A DNA stretch of 39,139 nt, taken from Caldithrix sp. (GTDB lineage: Bacteria > Calditrichota > Calditrichia > Calditrichales > Calditrichaceae). The stretch lies in NCBI GenBank assembly GCA_020720405.1, contig DYOS01000016.1:1-39139 (forward strand), in the 5' to 3' direction. Position numbers and translations under genes: made by a program. This document shows, piece by piece, positions 37,215 to 38,803 of the stretch. Position 1 is the stretch's first letter. Each line of letters starts with the position of its first letter. Below the pieces are notes generated by a model. The model searched no databases. It saw nothing but the letters and a program-made list of their open reading frames with translations, and was not told where the DNA came from.

Positions 37215-37757
37215 TTAATTCTGCGCACGGTGTCTTTTTAAAATTAGCTGATCTACTATCTGGTAGAAAATCAGCACAGACAGGGCAGAAAAATAAACCA
37301 GCCATGATTGCAGTTTTGAAAACAGGCCATCCAGATATTCCTGAAAAGTTTGGAGAAAATCAGGACGGACGGACACCATATCCCGGGTCAGGTTGAAAGG
37401 TTTTTCCAGCCATTCCGGCGCTAAAAGCCGGGGCAGGGTAGGGGGCATCCGGAGATGGCCATTATAAACAGCGAAAATAGAGACCAAAGCCAGAACGGCA
37501 AGTGCAGCATAAAACAAAAGGTCTGCTCTTCCTTCGGGGACAATCCGCCGCAAGCGGTAGTAAATCTGTTTTTTAACCGGACTGCGCAGAATTCTTGGCG
37601 CCAGGTGCAGCAAGGTCTGCTCGGTTTCCCGGCAGCCGGCCAGTTCAGCCTGGCATTCCCGGCACCGGCCGAGATGTTCCATTTCATCTAAACTGAGGCC
37701 GCCACCATTGTGACTGATATAGTCAAAAAGGCTTTCGGTTGTCAGGTGTCCACTCAT
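37215..37757 (-). CDS. Anti-sigma factor with zinc-binding (ZAS-type) domain and two membrane segments
   Basis: A 180-residue protein following the ECF sigma gene with a four-base ATGA overlap. Residues 1-45 contain His28-x3-Cys32-x2-Cys35 (EHLGRCREC), the zinc anti-sigma signature that binds sigma in the cytoplasm. Hydrophobic segments near residues 80-98 and 151-173 would leave a loop of about 50 residues outside the membrane, which may be the sensing part. The usual response is release of sigma on envelope stress. The signal is unknown. It is the second gene of the sigma operon and should be produced together with its target. Confidence 0.88.
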   Translation of the reverse strand: MSGHLTTESLFDYISHNGGGLSLDEMEHLGRCRECQAELAGCRETEQTLLHLAPRILRSPVKKQIYYRLRRIVPEGRADLLFYAALAVLALVSIFAVYNGHLRMPPTLPRLLAPEWLEKPFNLTRDMVSVRPDFLQTFQEYLDGLFSKLQSWLVYFSALSVLIFYQIVDQLILKRHRAQN

Positions 37758-38302
37758 ACCAGTTCCTCTATAGAATAATGTTTTTCCAGATTTTTCTTCA
37801 GATTGATCCGTCCCCGGTGTAGATGCGTTTTAACTGTATTTTCCGGGATTTCCAGCAGGACGGCAATTTCCCCGATCTGGAATTGCTGCAGATAAAAAAG
37901 CGTCAAAACCAACCCTTCTTCCATTTTCAGAGCATCAATATATCGCCATAATATCTGCCGTGTATCCTCTTCCGTTTCCGGCGCCGGTCCGGTTATCCAG
38001 TCCGCTTCAGTGTCATTATCCAGCGAAACTTGTTCCGGATACTGATGCTGTGACCGGTAGTTCAGACAGTAACGGTAGGTAAGGCTGTACAGCCAGGTTG
38101 AAAAACGGGATTGTCCGTCAAACAGATTAATTTTCTGATAAACCCGCAGGAAAACATCGTTGGTTGCTTCTTCTGCCAATCCGTGATTTTTCAGGATCTG
38201 TACAGCCAGGGAATAGACATAGTCGGAATATTTTTCGATCAGCATTTTGAGAGCCCGGTTTTCACCACGGCGCAGCCCGGCTACTAAAGTTTTTTCATCC
38301 AT
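37754..38302 (-). CDS. ECF (group IV) RNA polymerase sigma factor
   Basis: A 182-residue sigma factor from ATG 38302 (MDEKTLVAG). Region 2 is seen in ALKMLIEKYSDYVYSLAVQILKNHGLAEEATNDVFLRVYQKINLF and FSTWLYSLTYRYCLNYRS; region 4 with its helix-turn-helix is VLTLFYLQQFQIGEIAVLLEIPENTVKTHLHRGRINLKKNL. No region 3 is present, as expected for ECF types. An upstream ATG at 38311 lies inside the proposed -10 element of its own promoter, so the shorter start is preferred; the mRNA would then be nearly leaderless. Autoregulation is inferred from the divergent promoters. Confidence 0.92.
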   Translation of the reverse strand: MDEKTLVAGLRRGENRALKMLIEKYSDYVYSLAVQILKNHGLAEEATNDVFLRVYQKINLFDGQSRFSTWLYSLTYRYCLNYRSQHQYPEQVSLDNDTEADWITGPAPETEEDTRQILWRYIDALKMEEGLVLTLFYLQQFQIGEIAVLLEIPENTVKTHLHRGRINLKKNLEKHYSIEELV

Positions 38303-38310
38303 ATGCAGCA

Positions 38311-38373
38311 TATGACAGGTGAAAGTGCTTCCGGGTTTCAATCTGAAACCTTTTTTTTTAAACACCTGTCATA
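38311..38373. promoter_or_regulatory. Mirror-image pair of ECF-type promoters
   Basis: Plus strand: -35 TGAAACC (38344-38350), 16 bases, -10 TGTCATA (38367-38373), aimed at the DUF6249 gene. Minus strand: -35 TGAAACC (38340-38334), 16 bases, -10 TGTCATA (38317-38311), aimed at the sigma gene. Both elements and spacers are identical in both directions, around an axis near 38342; the spacers themselves are not symmetrical. The -35 resembles GAAAC-type elements of several ECF groups, and the -10 has the G-T-C core that ECF sigma factors often use. Confidence 0.7.
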
Positions 38374-38399
38374 GTAGCAAACAAACCAGGGAGGTCAAA

Positions 38400-38744
38400 A
38401 TGCAGGAAGAAATTTTTATACCCATCGTCATGTTTCTGGTCGTCGGGATTGTTGTTTACCAGTACCTGAAGAATCGGCATGAGGAGCGATTGGCGCTGAT
38501 TGAGAAAGCGGATATTTCACCGGAGCTGAAAAATGTGTTGCGCATCCGGCCGGTTTATCCGGTAAAAGCTGTGGTAAAATGGGCTTTTCTTATACTTGGG
38601 CTGGGTCTGGCGCTGGTCATCGGCGGATTTATCGAACCCTATGTCGATGAGATGGTTGTGGGCGGATTGATTTTCGGCTTGCCGGGAATAATGCTGCTGG
38701 TCTATTACAAAATGTACGGGAAACTTGATAACCCTTCTCAATAA
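38400..38744 (+). CDS. DUF6249-type small membrane protein
   Basis: A 114-residue protein; the start at 38400 (MQEEIFIPIVMFL) has GGGAGG seven bases or fewer upstream, so the longer frame from 38319 is rejected. There are three hydrophobic segments: residues 6-22 (IPIVMFLVVGIVVYQYL), about 60-80 (AFLILGLGLALVIGGFIE) and about 86-103 (VGGLIFGLPGIMLLVYY). The conserved K-N-R-H-E-E-R-L-A-L-I-E-K block after the first segment identifies the DUF6249 family. In FCB genomes such genes often neighbour ECF sigma operons. Its promoter matches that of the sigma gene, so it is a likely member of the regulon. Confidence 0.82.
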   Translation: MQEEIFIPIVMFLVVGIVVYQYLKNRHEERLALIEKADISPELKNVLRIRPVYPVKAVVKWAFLILGLGLALVIGGFIEPYVDEMVVGGLIFGLPGIMLLVYYKMYGKLDNPSQ

Positions 38745-38770: not shown

Positions 38771-38803
38771 AGGCTGCCTGAGCTGTCGGGCAGCCTTTTT
38801 TTT
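38771..38803 (+). terminator. Intrinsic terminator of the DUF6249 gene
   Basis: AGGCTGCC (38771-38778) and GGCAGCCT (38789-38796) form a stem followed by eight T residues. It lies 27 bases after the stop codon at 38744. Confidence 0.88.

Follow-up and report, generated by a model that had tools for sequence, protein, structure and literature searches.

Autoregulated ECF sigma factors encoded in an operon with their anti-sigma factor are textbook systems. The -10 element of SigW from Bacillus subtilis is usually given as CGTA and the SigW regulon is large, while the RseA protein of the Escherichia coli RpoE/RseA system has no zinc motif. Approximately 55% of known ECF sigma factors are predicted to be autoregulated, and AAC is the common core of the -35 element (PMC8103513). 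Crystal structures have T171 of SigW in contact with A and S172 of SigE in contact with G at the third -35 base (PMC6713349), S182 of Mycobacterium tuberculosis (Mtb) SigH likewise contacting G (PMC6411747), and for SigZ of B. subtilis a pairing of C with S is noted (PMC6713349). The locus described here is ordinary in kind and unusually well supported. It comprises two mirrored sequence blocks that, judged from the sequences compared below, are very probably back-to-back promoters for the neighboring ECF sigma factor, with the consensus TGAAAC-N17-TGTC-NTA and with autoregulation. As in other autoregulated ECF systems, a sigma and anti-sigma operon would stand under its own promoter (PMC8103513); unlike such systems generally, the locus has a single divergent target, a DUF6249 gene with a matching promoter, that is kept across phyla, and in the Calditrichales a predicted leaderless sigma start.

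The best PDB match of the sigma factor is SigW, and the locus resembles SigW/RsiW in having T at the recognition position of sigma and a TGAAACC-T-tract -35 element; the -35 DNA of the SigW co-crystal, ATTGAAACCTTT, shares TGAAACCTTT with the right-hand promoter (PMC6713349). It differs from SigW in scoring below the cut-off of the NCBIfam SigW equivalog NF007223 (94.4 bits vs. 209), in its TGTC-NTA -10 element, and in a likely regulon of one locus. With RpoE/RseA and Mtb SigH it shares the sigma4 contact logic and a GTC-like -10 element, and its 17-bp spacer is the SigH optimum (PMC6411747), whereas the regulons of those two systems are broad and their third -35 base is G.

The window, by which we mean the whole 39,139-nt stretch analyzed, is one contig of a 3.3-Mb draft genome. 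Its minus strand encodes the ECF sigma factor (37754..38302; 182 aa), in which Sigma70_r2 (PF04542, residues 21-86) and Sigma70_r4_2 (PF08281, residues 116-166) both exceed their cut-offs and TIGR02937 scores 84 bits (cut-off 42.9). The protein has sigma2 and sigma4 domains only, joined by a short linker, as is characteristic of ECF (group IV) factors. Its stop codon overlaps the ATG of a second minus-strand gene (ATGA; 37215..37757) for a 180-aa protein with one clear and one weaker predicted transmembrane (TM) helix and the zinc-type motif HLGRCREC at residues 28-35, the HxxxCxxC signature of ZAS proteins, in an N-terminal cytoplasmic helical domain. H28, C32, and C35 are invariant across 25 aligned rows, those from outside the Calditrichota having been chosen for possessing the motif, and an anti-sigma factor with HxxxCxxC is present in all 18 Calditrichota loci in which the caller found the open reading frame. 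The protein has no Pfam match and reaches 21.7 bits against an NCBIfam antisigma cut-off of 100. Its structure model shows membrane helices and an N-terminal domain predicted with confidence, and the most relevant matches in a fold search were RseA and MucA chains, both weak (E 1.2 and 9.5). By its motif it is a putative zinc-type anti-sigma factor, predicted to bind and inhibit its cognate sigma.

On the plus strand, the DUF6249 gene (38400..38744) encodes a 114-aa membrane protein matching PF19762 over residues 6-105 (43.5 bits, gathering cut-off 33). Three TM helices are predicted, and the structure prediction (pLDDT 81.5) has three long helices (3-36, 55-78, and 84-110) with a short conserved ER..xIEKG stretch after the first; fold searches with this model found no relative. 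The gene is preceded by a Shine-Dalgarno sequence, GGGAGGT (38389..38395), a GGAG-type site being present in 10/10 relatives, and is followed by an intrinsic terminator (38771..38803, plus strand; 11-bp stem, then a T-run), so DUF6249 is monocistronic.

The gap between the sigma and DUF6249 genes measures 97 bp (38303-38399), not the 90 bp given in the original prediction. Within it, TGAAACC-N16-TGTCATA occurs in both orientations without a mismatch, at 38344-38373 on the plus strand and 38340-38311 on the minus strand, precisely where it had been placed. A motif search of the window found no further exact copy, the other matches having three mismatches and being about as numerous as chance would give. 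The sigma/anti-sigma operon promoter thus consists of a TGAAAC -35 element (38335..38340, minus strand) and a TGTCATA -10 element (38311..38317, minus strand), and the DUF6249 promoter of TGAAAC (38344..38349, plus strand), followed by a C and a T-tract (TGAAACCTTTTTTTTT), and TGTCATA (38367..38373, plus strand); the core of the DUF6249 -35 element is that of the SigW co-crystal DNA (PMC6713349). AAC in the -35 element, a GT-type -10 element, and a rigid spacer (17 bp from GAAACC to GTC) are the features of ECF-type promoters, and both sides have them. The seven-base blocks that were originally described are exact, although the full outer arms (TATGACAGGTG, 38311-38321, and CACCTGTCATA, 38363-38373) extend beyond that figure, being fully complementary over 11 nt. 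The assertion that such a pair had a very low probability of arising by chance was overstated for one sequence, as 222 (1.1%) of 20,000 versions of the gap shuffled by dinucleotide contained some exact mirrored 7+7 arrangement with a spacing of 15-19. A lone sequence is the weaker argument, and the reality of the pair is settled by its conservation in the gaps of relatives. A sigma70-like site, TTGACC-N16-TACTAT with TG before its -10 element, is also present at 38398-38371 on the minus strand at chance level, and could be a source of basal sigma transcription.

Outward-facing TGAAAC-N17-TGTC on both strands was found in the sigma/DUF6249 gap of all nine tested relatives from the same family or order that have a sigma of the same clade as the window's (L007, L008, L011, L012, L017, L018, L019, L023, and L030), TGTC being conserved in 10/10 sequences on either side. 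The comparison with relatives called for in the original prediction retains the motif pair, while spacer and flank sequences vary freely. When ~85,000 species were scanned blind for the mirrored arrangement, 14 loci emerged, five of which are sigma/DUF6249 gaps (four Calditrichota, one Ignavibacteria); a sixth is a Planctomycetes gap adjoining a sigma, where the DUF6249-like match is weaker, and the remaining eight have no adjoining sigma homologue. Plain palindromes from outside the Calditrichota in the mirrored scan (GTTTCACGTGAAAC; Streptomyces and Isoptericola), which we take to resemble parS, were rejected because no sigma homologue lies beside them. The same-family relatives and the named records that carry the locus are Calditrichaceae/Calditrichota, and searching the proteins of named genomes with sigma alone yielded nothing.

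DUF6249 was present in 66 of 385 genomes, and the loci fetched comprise 51 divergent sigma/DUF6249 gaps and four same-strand arrangements. In four DUF6249-positive genomes the sigma orthologue scored 126-164 bits, and in a fifth (G004) it is in two pieces of ~73 bits each (41 and 49% identity), the overall range being 41-49% identity. Ten DUF6249-negative genomes of the same family or order have no close orthologue, their best sigma reaching at most 76 bits and 28-33% identity. Tandem DUF6249 paralogues adjoining an ECF sigma or in its vicinity were observed in two loci, three copies in L096 (G183) and two in L105 (G084). In another genome, one DUF6249 copy (L084/L098, G229:C81) has an in-frame TAG and the second (C132) is intact. 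The gene 3' of the DUF6249-linked sigma in three loci of one family (L101, L113, and L118; G108, G249, and G378) does not encode a zinc-type anti-sigma factor, its product beginning nitroreductase-like (DRRSxxxF). L122, L124, and L125 have a two-TM protein without HxxxCxxC at the anti-sigma position; the promoters in L124 and L125 are of the TGTAAC type with a CCTC-like -10 element.

The center of the gap could also be read as RNA, with GGTTTCA-ATC-TGAAACC and the nine T residues behind it forming an intrinsic terminator or structured RNA in which the matched letters reflect base pairing. A terminator scan does mark 38333-38351 as terminator-like, and the concordance of the mirrored hexamers reported below resembles compensatory pairing. 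However, the distance between the -35 hexamers, which would be the loop, ranges within the Calditrichales from 3 nt in the window to 42 nt in L008 and reaches 266 nt in other lineages, the T-run is common to the window, L007, and L008 only, and Rfam gave no match. A hairpin also leaves unexplained the outer TGTC blocks with their fixed N17 spacers and the covariation with sigma residue 159, and we rejected it as highly improbable on the grounds of loop variation, loss of the T-run in relatives, and sigma covariation. The perfect arms about a single axis, 11 bp for the outer and 7 bp for the inner pair, would also suit a dyad operator bound by a dimeric repressor or activator. Such a site is extremely unlikely, since the distance between half-sites shifts by non-helical amounts among relatives and sigma was the only DNA-binding regulator found at the locus.

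Outside the Calditrichales the -35 element is often TGCAAC or TGTAAC instead of TGAAAC. Under an objective pairing rule, an outward TGNAAC pair was present in 35 of the 51 divergent gaps and absent from 16, and the rule is therefore not universal. The third base was the same in both promoters in 34 of these 35 gaps, which span many phyla, compared with a mean of 14.9 and a maximum of 26 in 50,000 permutations, values that are not strict probabilities as the lineages share ancestry. Among all columns of the sigma alignment, the best predictor of this base was residue 159 (counted from ATG 38302), which in the window is a T (codon 37826..37828, minus strand) in the recognition helix TVKTHLHRGR. 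T goes with A in 14/15 loci, S or N goes with C in 13/14, and V with T in 3/3. Among loci beyond the two main pair sets the rule holds in 16/19, although the tree still assigns three of these loci to the C clade. L022, L130, and L107 break the residue rule. T159 aligns with SigW T171 and SigE S172, its SigH equivalent being assigned by eye from the residue names in PMC6411747. The residue/base code is already known, and its operation across the sigma/DUF6249 module is the new part.

The sole discordant pair, in L112 (G117), has TGCAAC rightward and TGAAAC leftward, and its sigma helix, GTIKSHLFRSR, is a hybrid with a C-type-like S followed by an A-type-like H, possibly a transitional state. 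The sigma tree unites the A-type Calditrichales with the Ignavibacteria (94/83) and gathers most C-type loci in a second group (99/91). G008 (L029) belongs to the family of the window's genome but pairs a sigma from the second main clade with TGTAAC/CGTAAC promoters, indicating that promoter type goes with the sigma and not with the host; its module has probably been replaced by transfer.

Concordance and residue-159 covariation tie both promoters to the neighboring sigma and set aside the hairpin and the operator, the blocks of which moreover have ECF -35 and -10 content and spacing. Calditrichota genomes do contain several ECF paralogues (28-33% identity), any of which might read these promoters and have the neighboring sigma as its target. 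This is very doubtful given that promoter type tracks residue 159 of the neighboring sigma across phyla, that DUF6249-negative genomes also lack the orthologous sigma, and that the motif is confined to the sigma/DUF6249 gap. The original prediction of an ECF promoter pair is thus upheld for the neighboring sigma by conservation in orthologous gaps and by covariation of the -35 element with a base-contacting sigma residue (PMC6713349, PMC6411747), and the same two lines of evidence support its proposals that the sigma is autoregulated and that DUF6249 is a direct target.

The expectation of genome-wide enrichment was not borne out. TGAAAC-N17-TGTC-NTA gave 18 matches in 10 genomes (~38 Mb), of which 16 are at the sigma/DUF6249 gap, against five for the reversed control, and with one mismatch allowed there was no excess (138 matches, sites at the gap included, vs. 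191). A broader regulon was ruled out on these counts, the strict motif outside the gap being at background. One outside match (G000:C7:259) is inside an open reading frame; the other (G016:C11:3912-3941, L057), an intergenic full consensus, precedes by ~43 nt the ATG of a gene for a predicted secreted protein (MSTRITVLTLLLVSGLFAQPG...), which may be a second target in G016 only. Because the motif is confined to the sigma/DUF6249 locus, we consider the regulon local rather than broad, and it is likely to be the locus itself, namely sigma, the zinc-type anti-sigma factor, and DUF6249.

In Mtb SigH, GTT occupies positions -11 to -9 (PMC6411747). We infer transcription and its start sites from this ECF register: with the C of TGTC (38314) at -9 or -10, the sigma operon would start at 38304..38305 (minus strand), giving a 2-3 nt leader before ATG 38302, and DUF6249 at 38379..38380 (plus strand), giving a leader of 20-21 nt. 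Either start would then lie 6-7 nt beyond TGTCATA, within the 5-9 nt originally proposed. The distance from the C of TGTC to the sigma ATG is 9-12 nt in 10/10 Calditrichales and, as read from the gaps, likewise 9 nt in L009 and L010 from other Calditrichota; family f5 differs. The stretch before the sigma ATG is itself the -10 region and has no Shine-Dalgarno sequence. Since the ATG is so close to TGTC, the sigma mRNA of the Calditrichales is predicted to be leaderless, with a leader of 0-4 nt if GTC lies at -11 to -9 or one base upstream, and to undergo leaderless translation.

We infer a circuit in which the membrane-bound zinc-type anti-sigma factor, translated from the sigma operon through the ATGA coupling, would keep sigma inactive until some signal, probably stress on the membrane or envelope, releases it. 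Sigma-RNA polymerase would then fire leftward, making more sigma and anti-sigma, and rightward, making DUF6249, a small three-helix inner-membrane protein and the only high-consensus output of the circuit, which may act on the membrane or feed back on the anti-sigma factor. A role of DUF6249 in membrane stress, for which the grounds are its membrane topology and position, is tentative and somewhat short of an even prospect. In a variant of this circuit that is a little less probable, DUF6249 would not be the effector but would take part in feedback by aiding the recapture of sigma by the anti-sigma factor, making the system a purely self-limiting sensor. DUF6249 being the sole conserved partner and sole target would fit this, as would its purely membrane-embedded nature, its conserved stretch, and its co-occurrence with sigma, but the tandem copies in some lineages would suit an effector as well.

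The ECF literature searched contained no link between DUF6249 and a sigma factor, an absence that is not proof of novelty, and the DUF6249 single-target module appears undescribed there. The locus may represent a self-contained ECF circuit that crosses phyla, with DUF6249 as its only output besides itself, promoters that shift in step under a one-residue/one-base code, a leaderless sigma mRNA in the Calditrichales, and DUF6249 as a membrane-state effector or feedback element in a membrane-homeostasis loop; we hold this full picture to be nearly as probable as not. DUF6249, a domain of unknown function, thereby gains a regulator and a testable role. The loci also provide a natural mutagenesis series across phyla, with A, C, or T at one -35 base set against T, S/N, or V at one sigma residue, which supports sequence-based prediction of ECF promoters for uncultured bacteria and points to compact, orthogonal pairs of sigma factor and promoter.
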